From the NCBI GenBank assembly GCA_949282305.1, contig CASDPB010000065.1:1-64000 (forward strand): a stretch of 64,000 nucleotides of DNA. The letters run 5' to 3'. This DNA comes from an uncultured Lentisphaeria bacterium. GTDB taxonomy: Bacteria; Verrucomicrobiota; Lentisphaeria; Victivallales; UBA1829. This document shows, in pieces, positions 34,312-43,511 of this stretch (position 1 is its first letter; each line of letters opens with the position of its first letter). Position numbers and translations under genes: made by a program. The notes beneath the pieces are model-generated. The model saw only the letters and a program-made list of their open reading frames with translations, was not told the DNA's origin and made no database searches.

Positions 34312-35856
34312 ATGTCGAAAAGCGAAAACATACTGGTTCTTGATTTCGGTTCCCAGTACAGCCAGTTGATCGCGCGCAGAATCCGTGAGTGCAATGTCTA
34401 CAGCCGGATTGTTCCTTTCAGAATCAGCGCGGATGAAATCAGGAAAGAAGCGCCGGCGGGAATTATCCTGAGCGGCGGTCCCGCAAGTGTTTATCAGGAT
34501 GGTGCGCCGAAGTGCGATCCCGCGGTTTTTGAACTTGGAATTCCGGTTCTCGGCATCTGTTACGGAATGCAGCTGACGGTGCAGACTCTCGGCGGGGAAG
34601 TTGCGCGCGGCAAGGCACGCGAATACGGCAAGGCGGAGATTGAAGTCTGCGGGGAATCCGCATTGTTCGATGGATTTCCCGGAAAGGGGCAGGTCTGGAT
34701 GTCTCATGGAGACAAAGTCACGAGAATTCCCGACGGCTTTTCCCGTATTGCCCGCACGGACAATACGGAATTTGCCGGAATCCAGAATCCGGAAAGGAAA
34801 ATCTACGGAATTCAGTTCCACCCCGAGGTTGTGCATACGCCGAAGGGACAGATCCTCATTACAAATTTCTGCCGCAGAATCTGCGGTTGTTCCGGCAGCT
34901 GGAACATGGAGTCGTTTATAGAAACCGCCGTCCGTGAAATTCGTGAGAAAGTCAAAGGGGAGAAAGTGATTCTCGGGCTCAGCGGCGGTGTGGACTCCTC
35001 CGTTGCCGCGGCTTTGATTCATAAGGCAATCGGGGATCAGCTCACCTGTATTTTTGTGAACAACGGCGGACTTCGCAAAGGAGAGCCGGAACGGGTCAAG
35101 GCGCTGTTCGGCGGTTCTTTCAAAATGCCGCTGAAGTATGTCGATGCCGAGGCGCGTTTTCTTGAAAGACTCAAAGGTGTCAGCGAACCGGAAAAGAAGC
35201 GCAAGATCATCGGTCACGAATTTATTGAGGTGTTCGACGAGGCGGCGTCCGAGATTTCCGATGTGAAATTTCTTGCGCAGGGAACCACCTATCCCGACGT
35301 GATCGAAAGTGTTTCGATTGACGGCAATCCGAGCGCGGTCATCAAAAGCCATCACAACGTCGGCGGGCTTCCTGCCACGATGAACCTGAAACTGCTGGAG
35401 CCGCTGAGCCGTCTGTTCAAGGATGAGGTCCGCGAAGTCGGGCGCAAGCTCGGACTGCCGGAAGAGATGGTCATGCGTCAGCCGTTCCCGGGACCCGGTC
35501 TTGCGGTGCGTATGCTCGGCGAGGTCAACAAGAGAGACCTGGACACGCTTCGCGACGCCGATGAAATCATCGTCGATGAAATGAAAAAAGCGGGACTTTA
35601 CTATAAGACGTGGCAGACTTTCGGAGTCTTCATCCCCGTGAAAACGGTCGGGGTGATGGGCGACGAGCGCACCTATGACAATGTGATTGCGCTGCGTGCC
35701 GTGGAAAGTCAGGACGGCATGACTGCGGACTGGGTTCAGCTTCCCTATGATCTGCTCGGCAGAATATCGAGCCGTATCATCAACGAGGTTAACGGCGTGA
35801 ACCGCGTGGTGTATGACATTACGTCCAAGCCTCCGGGAACCATTGAGTGGGAATAA
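34312..35856 (+). CDS. guaA: GMP synthase (glutamine-hydrolysing) GuaA
   Basis: A 514-residue amidotransferase making GMP from XMP. The class I glutaminase has its nucleophile Cys in GICYGMQL at about 82-89 and the His-Glu pair in QFHPEVV near 168-174. The ATP pyrophosphatase domain starts with [14 protein letters not shown] at about 221-234. The C-terminal dimerisation domain ends with [17 protein letters not shown], the usual last residues, so the 3' end is intact. An AGAGAAACGTCT stretch precedes the ATG. rsmD starts eight bases after its stop. Confidence 0.97.
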
Positions 35857-35863
35857 GGCCGGC

Positions 35864-36424
35864 ATGGAAATTCTGGGCGGCATGGCGAAAGGCATTTCTC
35901 TGAAAGTGCCCGGCGGAGCGACGGTAAGACCGACGGCTGTCAGGGCACGCAGGGCGCTGTTTGACAGTCTGGGTATCCTTGACGGGAAAAGTGCATGTGA
36001 TCTTTTCGCAGGCAGCGGCGCTGTCGGATTCGAGTTTGCGAGCCGCGGCGCGGAATCCGTATTGTTTGTGGAGAAGTCTCCGCAGTCTCTTGGCGCGCTC
36101 AAAGCCAATCTGAAAAAAATCGAGCCGGTCTGTTCTTCATGCCGCTTTACCGTATTCAGCGGGGCATTGCCGGAGTGTGCCGCCCGTTTCACATCGCTTC
36201 CCGCGCCGGATTTCATCTTTGCGGATCCGCCGTATGCGGAGTCGGCGGAGCTGCTGGACGGTCTTCTGCATGAAAAAGCGTTTACTGCCTGGGCAAAGCA
36301 TTCTCTCATGATCTGGGAACTCCCGGAAACCAGTTTCCAGCTGAAGGTTTTCCCCCCGGAATGGCGTGTGCAGACCATCAAACAGTTTGGAGGAGCCCGT
36401 TTCCTCTATGTGACGGGGGCGTGA
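35864..36424 (+). CDS. rsmD: 16S rRNA (guanine966-N2)-methyltransferase RsmD
   Basis: A 186-residue SAM methyltransferase for 16S rRNA. MEILGGMAKGISLKVP at the start matches the family's 'RIIGGxxKGrxL' opening, TVRPTAVRARRALFDSL follows, LFAGSGAVGFEFASRGA is the SAM motif (about 48-64), and FADPPY near 122-127 is the catalytic DPPY-type motif. I start at ATG 35864, eight bases after the guaA stop; the upstream in-frame start at 35813 lies inside guaA and adds no family sequence. Confidence 0.93.
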   Translation: MEILGGMAKGISLKVPGGATVRPTAVRARRALFDSLGILDGKSACDLFAGSGAVGFEFASRGAESVLFVEKSPQSLGALKANLKKIEPVCSSCRFTVFSGALPECAARFTSLPAPDFIFADPPYAESAELLDGLLHEKAFTAWAKHSLMIWELPETSFQLKVFPPEWRVQTIKQFGGARFLYVTGA

Positions 36425-36456: not shown

Positions 36457-36502
36457 AATGAAAAAAATACGGGAAAATCTGCCTGTAACGGCAAATTTTT
36501 AT

Positions 36503-36530
36503 TTGACAAGCTGATTTGTGAATGTAGTGT
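36503..36530 (+). promoter_or_regulatory. candidate promoter of the coiled-coil membrane protein cluster
   Basis: TTGACA, 16 bases, TAGTGT. A second -10-like TATAAT lies closer to the gene at 36566-36571 but lacks a good -35. Confidence 0.4.
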
Positions 36531-36599
36531 AAGCAGACCATACTTTATAAAACTGGTGTCTAATTTATAATAACATTTTTGACAGGAGAGAAAAGGGAC

Positions 36600-37859
36600 A
36601 TGGGTATTTTGAACAGAGTCATCAACATCCTGATTTTACTTGCTGCGATTGCAGCCGTTGTGTTTTCGTATATGCTGTTCAGCAAGCGCAATGAACTGAC
36701 GGACGGATGGCAGAAGATGGCGGATGCGATCAATGCGACCGCGGCGACTTTGGACGACAAAGGTGCTTCGGGGACAAAAGCGGCACAGGAACTTGCATCG
36801 GACAAGCTCAGACATACCCAGTATGCGAATCTGGATCAGGTATTGCCGAAATTGAAATCCAATGCGTCAAAAATCGTAAAGCAGCGTAATGATCTTGCGG
36901 AATCTTTCCAGAAAACGGCGGATACACTGGAAATTGCAGGAGTCAATGCCAAGGATTTCCAGAATACAACCACTTATGAAGCCAAGGGCAAGGAATTCGG
37001 AACCAAAGTCTCCGATTTCAAACGCAACCGGGATGACGTTTTTGCAAATTATGTCAAAACCGGAAGTATCGCCGGAGCCTCTATTTCCGCCAATGAGCTG
37101 AAAGATTCCGCCCAGGCGAATGCCGCCGCCCAGAAAATCAATACAAAAATCAATGACATCAAAAGCCGCAGAGACCGTTTTGCCTCCCACATTGCAACGA
37201 TCAGCAAAACGCTCGGCGTCAAGAGCCCGAACCTGAATGGAAACAACTATGCCAGTGAGCTGAATGCTTCTCTTGCCGCGATCAACAAATATAAACGCAC
37301 AGCGGACACCACACGGAACGCACTGGCGGCGGAAAAGAGAAAGACGGCTTCCCTGAACAGTCAGATTGCGGCTCATCGCAAGACAATTTCCGATCATCTG
37401 GCGGACATCAAGGCAAAGCAGAAAAGAATTGATGAACTGCTCCGTGTCATTTCCGATGATGGCAAGTCCCATGTCCCGAACAAGGTGCTGACCGGAAAAG
37501 AGCCGGAGTGCTACGGGTATGTCAAGGGCAAAATTGAATATATTGATAAGGATTTCGGCTTCATCACCATCAACATCGGCAAAAAATACGAGTTTGTCCA
37601 GAAATACGGAATCAAGGAAAACAAAGTTGCGTTTCCGCTCCCTGCCGGCAAGATCATGACGATTGCGCGCGGTCTGAACAGCGACAAGCCTGAATTTATC
37701 GGAAAACTGGTTGTGACGAAGGTCGATGACCACAATGCAATCTGCAACCTTGTCAGCGGTGAGCTTTCAGAGCTGAGAGTGGGCGATGATGTCTACTTTG
37801 CAGATGAGGATATTGCCGCCGCAACGGAAAAAGCCGCCGCTCCGGCTGCCGCTAAATAA
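36600..37859 (+). CDS. membrane-anchored coiled-coil protein with C-terminal beta domain, unknown function
   Basis: A 419-residue protein. One membrane helix at about 5-28 (VINILILLAAIAAVVFSYML) is followed by a long helical region to about 295 rich in Ala, Asn, Lys and Asp with heptad character, with AAEKRKTASLNSQIAAHRK as its clearest coiled coil. Residues 305-400 are a beta-rich domain: GYVKGKIEYIDKDFGFITIN, later LVVTKVDDHNAICNLV and LRVGDDVYF. The tail is Ala/Pro-rich. I start at ATG 36600; a TTG at 36579 lies in the ribosome site. It resembles no named family I know. Two tiny membrane/lipoprotein genes follow. Confidence 0.7.
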   Translation: MGILNRVINILILLAAIAAVVFSYMLFSKRNELTDGWQKMADAINATAATLDDKGASGTKAAQELASDKLRHTQYANLDQVLPKLKSNASKIVKQRNDLAESFQKTADTLEIAGVNAKDFQNTTTYEAKGKEFGTKVSDFKRNRDDVFANYVKTGSIAGASISANELKDSAQANAAAQKINTKINDIKSRRDRFASHIATISKTLGVKSPNLNGNNYASELNASLAAINKYKRTADTTRNALAAEKRKTASLNSQIAAHRKTISDHLADIKAKQKRIDELLRVISDDGKSHVPNKVLTGKEPECYGYVKGKIEYIDKDFGFITINIGKKYEFVQKYGIKENKVAFPLPAGKIMTIARGLNSDKPEFIGKLVVTKVDDHNAICNLVSGELSELRVGDDVYFADEDIAAATEKAAAPAAAK

Positions 37860-37870
37860 GGAGGCGGGTC

Positions 37871-37978
37871 ATGTATTCATCGAAATTTTTTACAATCTGC
37901 TCGATTCTCACATTTCTCCTTCTTGCAGGCGTGTTGGTTCTGCAGGCTCTTGAAATGAAATGCTATGAGATGTTCTGA
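37871..37978 (+). CDS. 35-residue membrane peptide
   Basis: A short gene with a good GGAGGCGGGTC site before ATG 37871. The product is a single hydrophobic helix (about 6-26, FFTICSILTFLLLAGVLVLQ) and a polar tail with two Glu-Met and a Cys. It lies 11 bases after the coiled-coil protein and is followed by a terminator, so it is likely cotranscribed with it. Too short for family assignment. Confidence 0.5.
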   Translation: MYSSKFFTICSILTFLLLAGVLVLQALEMKCYEMF

Positions 37979-38004
37979 GCTTTCCTGAACTAAATCGAAT
38001 GAAG

Positions 38005-38036
38005 AACCGTCCGCTGGAAAGTCGTGACGGTTTTTT
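38005..38036 (+). terminator. rho-independent terminator after the small membrane peptide
   Basis: Stem AACCGTC/GACGGTT with a 14-base loop, then six T. It would separate the lipoprotein gene from the preceding pair unless read-through occurs. Confidence 0.8.
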
Positions 38037-38054
38037 CGTATATGGAGGCATTTT

Positions 38055-38210
38055 ATGAAATACCTGATGATGGCGTTGTTCCTTGCCGCTGCGGGAATTT
38101 TTCTGAGCGGCTGCACCGACTATGAGCGTGCGGGCGTGAATCCGCGTCCTTTCAATGAACCGAGAGACTGGGAGGTCAATCCCTACGGTCCCAATATGTT
38201 CCAGAACTGA
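38055..38210 (+). CDS. 51-residue lipoprotein with conserved PRPFNEPRDWE-type tail
   Basis: The ATG at 38055 has GGAGG seven bases upstream. A signal peptide ends at the lipobox LSGC (residues 17-20). The mature 32 residues contain NPRPFNEPRDWEVNPYG. Very short lipoproteins with an 'xPxPFNxPxxWE' tail occur, as I recall it, in PVC bacteria, but no function has been given to them. It stands alone between a terminator and a convergent AraC gene. It may act with the coiled-coil protein upstream, but this is inference. Confidence 0.6.
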   Translation: MKYLMMALFLAAAGIFLSGCTDYERAGVNPRPFNEPRDWEVNPYGPNMFQN

Positions 38211-38314: not shown

Positions 38315-39136
38315 CTATGGAAGTTTCCGGCCGGCGGCCTGCCTTAAGAGCTCCTTCTTGTAATGAAGCGGCGAGTTTCCGGTCATCCGTTTGAAAAAGT
38401 CGGAGAAGTGGAATTGCGAGGAAAAACCCATGATCGCGGCAATTTCACCGATATTTTTGTCCGAATAGCGCAGGTAGCGTTTTGCGCTTTCAACCCGGAG
38501 CTGATTCAGGAAATCCTTCGCCGGGAGCCCTGTCATCTGCTTGACCAGCACGGAGAAATGATTTCTTGAATAATTACATGCCTCGGCGGCCTCTGCCACG
38601 GAGAAGGGGCAGCGTTCCTGTTTTTCGAGAATGTCGTAAATTCTCGCAAGAGGGCCGGAATAGCGCTGGGAGTGTTGAAACAAAGTTGCGATGACACCTG
38701 TCAGGTAATATTCCATCAAGGTCTGGTAATGATCCTGCGGGAGAATGATCGTGCCTTCCGGAATTCCGAAGAAGCGGGAAGGGAACGTGGTCTCGAAAAT
38801 GGTTCTTGTCGCCTCGATTACCCCGCGCGTGAAATCACTGGAAGCGACATGGAGAAAAGGGGGAAAGACGGGCTGTATCATGTAAAACTTATAACAGAGA
38901 GAAAGATATTTTTCCGAATATTTCAAAGCGTGCCGGATTCCCGGCGCTATGAACAGCAGATCATTTTCCCCGACGGAGCAGCTGCCGTTTTCCGTAATGA
39001 GTTCACACTTTCCCGACAAGGTAAAATTTGCCTGGTAGAAATCATGAATGTGCATTTTTATCCTGATGGAAGGATTTCCTTCGGCGTATCCCCAGTAGCA
39101 CAGTTTGATTTTTCCCTGATTTTTTTCCGCTTCCAT
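38315..39136 (-). CDS. AraC-family transcriptional regulator of the efflux operon
   Basis: A 273-residue regulator with an N-terminal cupin sensor (about 25-115; HIHDFYQANFTLSGKCEL and VGENDLLFIAPGIRHAL) and a C-terminal double HTH (about 170-265; SVAEAAEACNYSRNHFSVLVKQMTG and NIGEIAAIMGFSSQFHFSDFFKR). It is transcribed away from the RND efflux genes at 39316, and probably controls them. I start at ATG 39136 behind AGGAG, six bases before; the ATG at 39190 adds residues with no cupin character. Confidence 0.92.
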   Translation of the reverse strand: MEAEKNQGKIKLCYWGYAEGNPSIRIKMHIHDFYQANFTLSGKCELITENGSCSVGENDLLFIAPGIRHALKYSEKYLSLCYKFYMIQPVFPPFLHVASSDFTRGVIEATRTIFETTFPSRFFGIPEGTIILPQDHYQTLMEYYLTGVIATLFQHSQRYSGPLARIYDILEKQERCPFSVAEAAEACNYSRNHFSVLVKQMTGLPAKDFLNQLRVESAKRYLRYSDKNIGEIAAIMGFSSQFHFSDFFKRMTGNSPLHYKKELLRQAAGRKLP

Positions 39137-39162
39137 AGTTTTCTCCTGCTTTTTCCCGAGAT

Positions 39163-39190
39163 AAAATAGGACGGTTTTCCGGAAAAACAA
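39163..39190 (-). promoter_or_regulatory. candidate AraC promoter containing a TTTTCCGGAAAA palindrome
   Basis: On the minus strand TTGTTT (39190-39185), 16 bases, TATTTT (39168-39163). The spacer and -35 overlap the 12-base palindrome TTTTCCGGAAAA (39175-39186), a candidate regulator site. Confidence 0.4.
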
Positions 39191-39315: not shown

Positions 39316-40449
39316 ATGGGTTTTCGGAAAATCATATTGCTGTCCGGAGCGGTTTTTCTCGCCGGATTTTCCGCGGGATGCGGAAAAACGGAGAAGAGCG
39401 CCGGCGCTGAAGCGGAAGTGCTGTCCGTCCGTTTCTATACCTTGGAGAAAAAAAGTAACGGGCGTTACCGCATGTTTCCGGGTATTATCCAGCCTGAGAA
39501 GCAGGTCAATCTTTCCTTTCGTGTGGACGGACAGCTGATTCAGTTCAACGCCGGTCCCGGAAAGACGTTCCGGAAAGGGGATCTTCTTGCGAAGCTGGAC
39601 CCGGTTGCCTTTCAGGCGGCGCTGGACTCCGCCGACGCGAAATATAAAGAGGCGCTCAAGGATTATGAACGCTATAAGCTGCTTTACGGCAAAAAGGTCG
39701 TTGCGGCAACCGAGTATGAGAAGAAAAAGCGTGACCTCGACATAAGCGAGGCGGCTGTCCGCAATGCCCGGGACGATTTGCAGAATTCCGAAATTTACGC
39801 TCCGTTCAGCGGGATCACGTCCAATACCTATGCGGACAATTATCAGCACATCAAGGCAAAGGAAACTCTGATCCGGCTGCAGAACCTGAGCGCGCTTCAG
39901 GTTTCGATCGACGTGCCGGAAAAGGATTTTTCCGCCAGTATTTCCAACGACATCAATGAAGTGAACAGGCTTGCGGCTGAAAACGGCGGTTTCTACGGAA
40001 CGGTTCCCGCTCTTCCGGGGAAAAGGTTTAAACTCTCTCTGAAGGAAACCTCCACGGAGGCGGATTCGGTGACACAGACTTTCCGCGTCACGTTCCGCAT
40101 CAGCAAACCGGAAGACATCCGCCTGTTTCCGGGGATGACGATGGCGGTTTATGTGCCCGATCTCCGGCATAAGACCGAGGCGGAACGCAATGCGGCGATG
40201 TTCGAGATTCCCTTCTGCGCCGTTTTTACGAAAGACGGCAAAAGCTATGTCTGGCTGATCGGCAAAGACGGTGCCGTGCAGCCGGTTCAGGTCATACTTG
40301 GAACCGTGTACGGCTCGAATGTCAGCATTACCGCGGAACAGCTGAAGCCGGGAGATGTGATTGCAGCCTCCGGCGTGATGGTGCTCCATGACGGCGTCAG
40401 GGTCAGAGAACTGCCGGAAGTCGGCAGCAGGAAATCCATCGGGCAGTAG
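39316..40449 (+). CDS. RND efflux periplasmic adaptor (membrane fusion lipoprotein)
   Basis: A 377-residue periplasmic adaptor of a tripartite efflux pump. Its signal peptide ends in the lipobox-like FSAGC at about 18-22. A lipoyl/barrel-sandwich half is VNLSFRVDGQLIQFNAGPGKTFRKGDLLAKLDP (about 70-100), a coiled-coil hairpin follows (about 105-150), and the second lipoyl half is YAPFSGITSNTYADNYQHIKAKETLIRLQ. The beta-barrel and membrane-proximal domains complete it. It is 23 bases from the transporter gene. No TolC-type partner is encoded next to it, so an outside channel must be shared. Confidence 0.93.
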   Translation: MGFRKIILLSGAVFLAGFSAGCGKTEKSAGAEAEVLSVRFYTLEKKSNGRYRMFPGIIQPEKQVNLSFRVDGQLIQFNAGPGKTFRKGDLLAKLDPVAFQAALDSADAKYKEALKDYERYKLLYGKKVVAATEYEKKKRDLDISEAAVRNARDDLQNSEIYAPFSGITSNTYADNYQHIKAKETLIRLQNLSALQVSIDVPEKDFSASISNDINEVNRLAAENGGFYGTVPALPGKRFKLSLKETSTEADSVTQTFRVTFRISKPEDIRLFPGMTMAVYVPDLRHKTEAERNAAMFEIPFCAVFTKDGKSYVWLIGKDGAVQPVQVILGTVYGSNVSITAEQLKPGDVIAASGVMVLHDGVRVRELPEVGSRKSIGQ

Positions 40450-40472
40450 TCCGGGAAGCAGGGGGACATCCG

Positions 40473-43400
40473 ATGAATATTGCAGAATGGTCGATCCGGA
40501 AACCGCTTCTCACGTGGACTTTCACAGGCATGGCGGTGATTGCGGGCATCATAGCCTATTATCAGCTGCCGCGCTTTGAAGACCCTGAATTTACGATCAA
40601 GGAAGCGCAGATCATTACTTCATATCCGGGAGCGTCTCCGCGCGAGACTGCGCAGGAGGTGACTTCCCGGATCGAAGAGGCGGTTCAGCAGATGGGGCAG
40701 CTGAAGGAGATTCAGTCCAAGTCCTCCTGCGGGCTTTCCATTGTCCGTGCGGAGATGCAGGACAAATACAACAAGGATTCGCTGCCACAGGTCTGGGACG
40801 AGCTCCGTAATAAGATTGCCGATTCTTATACCACGCTTCCCCCGGGCGCTTCCATGCCGCAGGTCATTGACGACTACGGCGATGTGTACGGCGCATTTTA
40901 TGCCCTGACCGGAAAGGGCGCGACGCATGTCCAGCTGCACGAATTTGCGAAATATCTTCAGAAGCAGCTTCTCTTTGCGGAGGATGTCAAGAAAATCAAG
41001 TTGTTCGGGGTGCTTCCGGAGGCGCTGTATGTGACGCTTCACCGGGAAAAGATGGGGACGCTCGGGATTGCGCCGGAGGATATTTACGGGATTCTGAAAG
41101 AACGCAATCTTGTCACGAACGAGGGCTGGGTCGGCATCGGCGGTGAATGGCTGCCGATCAAGATGGATGCGGGAAGCATTACTCCCGAGGCGATCCGGAA
41201 TATTGTGATTACGCGCAGCACAGACCGTCTGATTACGCTTGGAGACATTGCAACCGTGACTCTGACGAAGAAGGATCCACCTTCGGAAATGCTCTTTTTC
41301 AACGGCGAGCCGGCTGTCGGCATCGGCATTTCCACGGTCGGCGGCGGCAATGTCGTAACCATGGGCGAATCAATTCAAAGGAAACTCAGAGAACTGGAGC
41401 CGATGTTTCCCGCGGAAATGAAGCTCCATACGATTTCCATGCAGTCGGATTCCGTATCCCGGGCGGTCAGGGGCTTTGTGGAGAATCTTGCCGAAGCCGT
41501 GGCGATCGTGATTGCCGTACTCCTGATTTTCATGGGATTGAAAAGCGGGCTCCTGATCGGTTTTGTTCTTTTTCTGACGATCTGCGGGACACTGTTCGTC
41601 ATGAACTGTTTTCAGATTGCGCTCCAGAGAGTTTCGCTCGGCGCGCTGATCATCGCCCTTGGAATGCTGGTTGACAATGCAATCGTCATCACGGAAGGCA
41701 TGATGATCCGCATCCGGCAGGGCGAAGACAAAATCAAAGCGGCGCGCGAGGTCGTCGGGCAGACCATGTGGCCGCTTTTCGGGGCAACGGCGATCGCGGT
41801 CACTGCATTCGGCGCCATCGGGCTTTCCGAAGACAGCACCGGAGAGTTCTGCGGCTCGCTGTTCCATGTTCTGCTGATTTCCCTGACCCTGAGCTGGGTT
41901 GCCGCCATTACGATTACGCCGCTTCTCTGTTATCATTCCTTTAAGAAAGACCCCGTGAAAACGGACGGCGGGATCGCTGATCCGTATGACAAGCCGATGT
42001 TCCGCGCTTACAGAAATATGCTGGTGTTTGTGCTCGGCCACAAGACCGCGGCGGTTGTCGTCATGGCGGCTGTTCTTGCTCTGAGCATCTGGGGATTCCG
42101 ATATGTGGACAGGAATTTCTTTCCCGCTTCGACACGTTCCCAGTTCCTGATTGACGTCCGGCTTCCTTACGGAGTGAATATCGCTTCGACCAATGACAAG
42201 ACGGCGGAAATCGAAAATTATGTGAAAACCCTGCCGGGGGTGACGGATGTCAGCCGTTTTGTCGGTGGCGGGGCACTGCGTTTCCTTCTGACTTATGCGC
42301 CCGAAGAGCCCGATACCGGATTCGGGCAGCTTCTGGTGAGCGTCAGGGACTGGCGCGAAATTGACGGTCTGGTGGAACGGATCCATGAATACAGCAAAAT
42401 TCATTTTTCGGATGTCAGTGTGATTCCTTACAAGTTTCGTCTCGGTCCCGGCGCAAACGGTGCGATTCAGGCGCGTTTCAGCGGAAATGATCCCGATGTC
42501 CTGCGCAGTCTTGCGGAGCAGGCAATGGACATTATGCGGAAAAATCCGAATGCGCGGGCGATTTACACCGATTGGCGCGACCGGATGAAGGTGATTCGTC
42601 CCGTCTTTTCGGAGCCCCGTGCCAGCCGTGCGGGGATCAGCAAACAGGAGGCTTCCGATGCGATCCGTGAAAACTTCGAGGGGCTGCCCATCGGGACTTT
42701 CCGCGATGGAGACGAGCTGATTCCGATCATTGCCCGTGCGGACGACAAACTCCGGAGCATCGAAAATTTCAGCAATATCATGATCTGGAGCCCGAATGCG
42801 AAAAAGATGATTCCGCTGACGCAGCTGTTCGACCAGACTGATATTGTCTGGGAGGATCCGATTATTGTGCAGCGTGACCGGATTCCGACGATCACGGTCA
42901 AATGCGATCCGGTCAAAGGACTCGCCGGCACTCTTTTCAATGAATTGCGCCCGGAGATTCAGAAGATAAAACTCCCGCCCGGCTATCGGCTGGAATGGGG
43001 CGGTGAATATGAGGATTCCCGAAACGCATCCGACGGCGTGTTTTCAAAACTTCCGCCGTCTATCGTGATTATGGTGCTGATTCTGCTGTTTATGTTCAAC
43101 TCGGTGAAGCAGTCGCTTGCGATCTGGCTGACAGTTCCGCTGGCGGTGATCGGTGTTGTCTGCGGTCTGCTTCTGACGGGACAGCCGTTCGGGTTCATGG
43201 CGCTGCTTGGTTTTCTGAGTCTGTCCGGAATGCTGATTAAAAATGCAATGATTCTGATTGATGAAATCAATGTGCAGCGCAGGAACGGCAAAGAACCGTT
43301 TCTGGCGGTCGTGGATTCATCGGTCAGCAGAATGCGCCCCGTTGCGCTGGCGGCATTCACCACGGTTCTGGGGATGCTGCCGCTGATTTTCGATGCGTTT

Positions 43401-43511
43401 TTTGCTGCAATGGCGGTTACAATCATGTTCGGTCTGACTTTTGCCTGTGTGCTGACACTGGTTATGGTTCCGGTGTTTTATGCAATGTTTTACCGGATCA
43501 GAAAGACATGA
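40473..43511 (+). CDS. RND-family efflux transporter (AcrB/HAE1-like)
   Basis: A 1012-residue proton-driven exporter with 12 membrane helices and two large periplasmic loops. GALIIALGMLVDNAIVITEGMMIRIRQG at about 390-417 is TM4: the AcrB DD pair reads DN here, so one of the two proton-relay Asp residues is replaced by Asn. The TM10 Lys is present in SLSGMLIKNAMILIDEINVQRRNG. PGASPRETAQEVTSRIEEAVQ near 50-70 is typical of the family. GGGGGAC precedes the ATG at 40473. The palindrome CATGAATCATGATTCATG overlaps its stop codon. Substrates are unknown. Confidence 0.94.
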   Translation: MNIAEWSIRKPLLTWTFTGMAVIAGIIAYYQLPRFEDPEFTIKEAQIITSYPGASPRETAQEVTSRIEEAVQQMGQLKEIQSKSSCGLSIVRAEMQDKYNKDSLPQVWDELRNKIADSYTTLPPGASMPQVIDDYGDVYGAFYALTGKGATHVQLHEFAKYLQKQLLFAEDVKKIKLFGVLPEALYVTLHREKMGTLGIAPEDIYGILKERNLVTNEGWVGIGGEWLPIKMDAGSITPEAIRNIVITRSTDRLITLGDIATVTLTKKDPPSEMLFFNGEPAVGIGISTVGGGNVVTMGESIQRKLRELEPMFPAEMKLHTISMQSDSVSRAVRGFVENLAEAVAIVIAVLLIFMGLKSGLLIGFVLFLTICGTLFVMNCFQIALQRVSLGALIIALGMLVDNAIVITEGMMIRIRQGEDKIKAAREVVGQTMWPLFGATAIAVTAFGAIGLSEDSTGEFCGSLFHVLLISLTLSWVAAITITPLLCYHSFKKDPVKTDGGIADPYDKPMFRAYRNMLVFVLGHKTAAVVVMAAVLALSIWGFRYVDRNFFPASTRSQFLIDVRLPYGVNIASTNDKTAEIENYVKTLPGVTDVSRFVGGGALRFLLTYAPEEPDTGFGQLLVSVRDWREIDGLVERIHEYSKIHFSDVSVIPYKFRLGPGANGAIQARFSGNDPDVLRSLAEQAMDIMRKNPNARAIYTDWRDRMKVIRPVFSEPRASRAGISKQEASDAIRENFEGLPIGTFRDGDELIPIIARADDKLRSIENFSNIMIWSPNAKKMIPLTQLFDQTDIVWEDPIIVQRDRIPTITVKCDPVKGLAGTLFNELRPEIQKIKLPPGYRLEWGGEYEDSRNASDGVFSKLPPSIVIMVLILLFMFNSVKQSLAIWLTVPLAVIGVVCGLLLTGQPFGFMALLGFLSLSGMLIKNAMILIDEINVQRRNGKEPFLAVVDSSVSRMRPVALAAFTTVLGMLPLIFDAFFAAMAVTIMFGLTFACVLTLVMVPVFYAMFYRIRKT

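Follow-up and report, generated by a model that had tools for sequence, protein, structure and literature searches.

A three-gene locus that may encode an envelope module of Verrucomicrobiota

The window analyzed here, a stretch of 64,000 nucleotides from an uncultured Lentisphaeria bacterium, carries three consecutive forward-strand genes that appear to represent an envelope component marking most of Verrucomicrobiota and nameless in every family library searched. They code for a 419-residue coiled-coil membrane protein (CC, 36600-37859), a 35-residue single-helix membrane peptide (PEP, 37871-37978), and a 51-residue lipoprotein (LIP, 38055-38210). From the predicted fold of CC and the sequence features of its two small neighbors, we tentatively infer that they may scaffold or link the inner and outer membranes. 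The core gene extends across a whole order and the tiny lipoprotein survives in genomes that match Xiphinematobacter in size, which together point to an important job in the envelope. Gut-dwelling Akkermansia and common soil bacteria are among the members of Verrucomicrobiota.

Conservation and arrangement of the three genes

CC occurs in a single copy in this genome and is conserved throughout the order. It was found in 35 of the 36 genomes of the family and in 109 of the 112 genomes of the order, including all 61 of high quality, and a few order genomes harbor two copies. In a sample of 388 genomes from the phylum, CC profiles matched 202 (E ≤ 1e-6). A contig scan with one protein retrieved three near relatives only; near relatives of the window are annotated as Victivallales or Lentisphaeria. 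In four genomes the CC profile matched two separated pieces within longer frames, in a manner that resembles an insertion.

The first-pass annotation had recognized no family for any of the three proteins, and our searches of Pfam and NCBIfam agreed with it: no model exceeded its cut-off for CC, for which chance coiled-coil matches alone were obtained, for PEP, or for LIP, for which nothing useful came up. Searching PDB sequences with the profiles of CC, LIP, and the CC head domain returned coiled-coil, signal-peptide, and other noise. Among the titles and abstracts listed for papers on essential genes of Akkermansia, tethers in Verrucomicrobia, and lipoproteins of Verrucomicrobiota, none concerned these genes; subscription papers may hold an earlier description. 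Work on PVC signature proteins (PMC3444138) reports that a different small uncharacterized protein, CT421.2, marks that clade. By its description there, it is set apart from the genes of the module as an ORF of cytoplasmic length that is described singly and not in such a cluster.

Profile searches in Verrucomicrobiota showed that the genes co-occur and sit together in relatives rather than being scattered. In 84 of the 87 order genomes with a LIP match, which are the genomes that this count covers, LIP is found immediately downstream of CC in the same orientation, with a median gap of about 200 bases; in the other three, CC and LIP are on different contigs. Both PEP and LIP come after CC in nearly all loci of the family. 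Beyond the order, CC is immediately upstream of LIP in 33 of 40 genomes, with gaps of -4 to 176 nucleotides, in a non-random set chosen by LIP match, mostly one genome per family, whose upstream DNA was tested with CC profiles. The genes that flank the module vary between lineages.

The dN/dS ratios among the four species of the genus were 0.06 to 0.09 for CC, 0.02 to 0.16 for PEP, and 0.07 to 0.19 for LIP, with a highest value of 0.45 for the closest LIP pair; all are rough, many synonymous distances being near saturation and two not computable. As judged from these sequence comparisons, the ratios indicate purifying selection on CC, PEP, and LIP, and the two small genes, whose lack of conservation would by the first-pass annotation's own terms have refuted it, are indeed conserved. 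One might object that the frames of PEP and LIP arose by chance next to a conserved CC gene, given that both are very short and belong to no family library searched. However, their conserved motifs and position and their low dN/dS, across genera and across the phylum, make this explanation hardly credible.

PEP consists of one membrane helix and a short tail, with the pattern VxQxxEMxxYxMF. Its distribution covers Victivallales, related orders, and several families beyond these, and it is absent from many families. In other families its start often lies 14 nucleotides before the CC stop codon, an overlap that suggests coupled translation. The ribosome sites noted earlier before the two tiny genes were found again, as AAGGAGG upstream of PEP and TGGAGG upstream of LIP.

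Upstream of CC, a promoter-like island on the forward strand (36502-36533, TTTGACAAGCTGATTTGTGAATGTAGTGTAAG) hardly differs between the genus's four species, whereas the surrounding DNA does. It includes TTGACA at 36503-36508 and a weak -10 box, and may be the promoter of CC. In the gap between PEP and LIP, a terminator-like stem-loop on the forward strand (38005-38036) pairs AACCGTC with GACGGTT and is followed by a run of T. Its fold has a z score of -2.2; a short-loop scan did not pick it up. An Rfam search gave nothing at the gathering threshold. All four species of the genus keep the hairpin; its stem letters are invariant among them and so offer no evidence of covariation. This terminator had been taken earlier as an argument for separate regulation of LIP. 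In another genus of the same family (g9), however, a gap of only a dozen or so nucleotides separates PEP from LIP; because the genes are so closely packed there, separate regulation would be at most a feature of the window's genus.

Predicted structure of CC

The first-pass annotation had described CC as a protein with a single membrane anchor, a helical rod, and a small beta domain, and AlphaFold2 modeling supports this description. The single hydrophobic segment is N-terminal. It is followed by a predicted helical region (residues 72-283, 36813-37448), with helices at residues 72-109, 126-157, 170-205, and 217-283, and by a predicted C-terminal beta domain, or head (residues 309-399, 37524-37796). 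The model of the whole protein has a mean pLDDT of 82.5 and a pTM of only 0.42, which leaves it uncertain how the helices are arranged. Modeled alone, the beta domain reached a pLDDT of 90.7 and a pTM of 0.80. In other classes, short forms of CC have roughly 110 to 145 residues from the anchor to the head. By sequence arithmetic rather than measurement, such an arm would span about 16 to 22 nm, the scale of the periplasm, if it formed one straight helix.

Structural comparison of the predicted head placed it in the fold of the FlgT C-terminal domain, its top matches being the FlgT entries 3w1e (Z 9.6, rmsd 2.2 over 81 residues) and 8z5n (Z 10.8, but rmsd 6.3). FlgT, a periplasmic protein, forms part of the flagellar H ring of Vibrio and acts with FlgO and FlgP (review PMC7693769). 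CC differs from FlgT in its membrane anchor and its long helical arm. The Pfam FlgT_C model (PF16538) was touched by 8 of 33 relatives, whereas the domain of the window's own CC gave no match to it at E up to 1. ATP-synthase barrels also matched the head, with Z scores slightly below those of FlgT. As modeled, the head fold is clear but common.

The succession of anchor, coiled coil, and beta domain is also that of MreC. CC could accordingly be regarded as a second, MreC-like morphogenesis scaffold for cell-wall synthesis, with PEP and LIP as its partners. This would agree with the shared plan and with the weak contact that 4 of the 33 relatives make with the Pfam MreC barrel (PF04085), and a murG-like gene, identified by eye, adjoins the module in a few relatives. 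Yet a separate, genuine MreC was found in 14 of 15 genomes checked, that of the window included; FlgT_C is matched by more relatives than the MreC barrel and gives the best structural match; and the neighbors of the module change by lineage. Together, these points make an MreC-like role improbable. The narrower idea that CC is the MreC ortholog itself was ruled out, as the true MreC is encoded elsewhere in the genome, on contig C35, with a PF04085 match of 3.8e-30; the CC protein of the window has no match to that model.

The lipoprotein and its occurrence apart from CC

LIP has a signal peptide with the lipobox LSGC (residues 17-20), whose Cys codon is at 38112-38114; this Cys is kept in 24 of 24 diverse relatives. 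From the residue that follows the Cys, LIP is probably located in the outer membrane, if the sorting rule of E. coli applies. Further along the protein, the short mature part carries the conserved tail motif PFNEPRDWE (38148-38174, forward strand), in which P32 and W39 are likewise kept in all 24 relatives. The consensus of the tail is P-[WF]-N-x(4)-W-E. It had been proposed that this tail is shared by PVC bacteria; we found it to be shared, as P[WF]N.P..WE, throughout Verrucomicrobiota, the phylum searched. Across all six frames, the window contains a single occurrence of the motif P[WF]N.{3,5}WE. A cross-class LIP profile matched 350 of the 388 genomes of the phylum sample (E ≤ 0.01), a figure to be read as an upper bound, since its weak matches will include some to the lipobox only.

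LIP is also found where CC is not. Two complete genomes of Xiphinematobacter size (915,884 and 917,278 bp) keep LIP, with the motif IPWNRPADWE; the same two lengths have been published for two Xiphinematobacter genomes (PMC7857533). Neither CC nor its head domain was detected in these ~0.916-Mb genomes, in which LIP adjoins other genes instead. A LIP gene without a detectable CC domain was also found in two genomes of family f32 and one of family f27, while f22 and a second f27 genome gave very weak matches to the CC domain only. In one f24 genome, CC is present on a contig other than that of LIP. At three loci, in genomes that we presume to be Akkermansia-like, two tandem CC paralogues are followed by a divergent small lipoprotein, the tail of which is degenerate (LPHN...FE).

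Of the two, LIP is more likely to be the indispensable one, because it survives in genomes from which CC is absent or in which CC has changed beyond recognition, and it may be the core of the module. Its retention in a small genome suggests, without proving it, that LIP is needed. The first-pass annotation had treated the three genes as a set. The order of CC and LIP is near-constant. The three are not an obligate trio, because PEP is missing in many families and LIP persists without detectable CC.

These exceptions bring in the main alternative, namely that LIP is a small accessory that serves a beta-barrel machine of the outer membrane, for example Bam or the LPS translocon, much as LptM does, and that CC is a neighboring helper or regulator. 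LptM (YifL) is a short lipoprotein that binds LptD and LptE (PMC10567701); like LIP, it is very short and has a conserved motif (PMC10567701), and it is described as conserved in Enterobacteriaceae. The precedent of LptM and the retention of LIP where CC is undetectable, including the Xiphinematobacter-size genomes, argue for such a role. However, a purely barrel-directed role leaves unexplained why most genomes have CC and LIP side by side, and LIP has no match to the LptM family beyond the signal peptide: the NCBIfam LptM model aligned with that part only (E 0.65, 10.1 bits against a cut-off of 27.7). Detection of LptD in Verrucomicrobiota was patchy, and its co-occurrence with LIP was uninformative. 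We consider this alternative possible, if doubtful.

A possible link between the two membranes

The reading that we prefer, still tentatively, is that of a trans-envelope scaffold or link, and a bridge between the two membranes, already raised in the first-pass annotation, would be in keeping with the topology of the proteins. According to this model, one helix would hold CC in the inner membrane, and the helical arm would extend into or across the periplasm and present the small beta domain of FlgT_C type. LIP would be lipid-anchored, probably in the outer membrane, and its P-[WF]-N-x(4)-W-E tail would dock on a partner, for which the CC head, or a complex that includes it, is the simplest candidate. 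Where present, PEP could be an inner-membrane partner of CC. In this way the three products would join the two membranes as a scaffold or link, of which LIP would be the part hardest to dispense with.

Several points speak for such a link: the order of CC and LIP is near-constant while the flanks change, CC has a predicted plan of anchor, arm, and head, the head resembles the periplasmic protein FlgT, LIP combines a lipobox with a near-invariant tail, and the overlap of PEP with CC in other families suggests that their translation is coupled. Against it stand the genomes with LIP and no CC, the absence of PEP from many families, and the commonness of the predicted beta fold. Because LIP persists in genomes without detectable CC, it cannot always act through CC. 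A bolder proposal would be a phylum-defining trans-envelope machine, apart from Tol-Pal, Lpt, Bam, and Mre, with a lipoprotein core of ~50 residues that even an endosymbiont with a 0.9-Mb genome cannot do without; we regard this as rather unlikely.

An attempt to read the function of the module from its neighbors was dropped, as the flanks change by lineage. Identified by eye, the genes upstream of CC in the window are a guaA-like gene (GMP synthase, 34312-35856) and an overlapping rsmD-like methyltransferase gene (35813-36424), a pair shared by four of the loci compared. Just downstream of LIP are a gene for an AraC-type regulator on the reverse strand (38315-39190) and an RND-type efflux pair on the forward strand (39316-43511), also recognized by eye. 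In four loci from several families, a large repeat-type protein of about 800 to 1060 residues with an N-terminal signal is encoded near the module.
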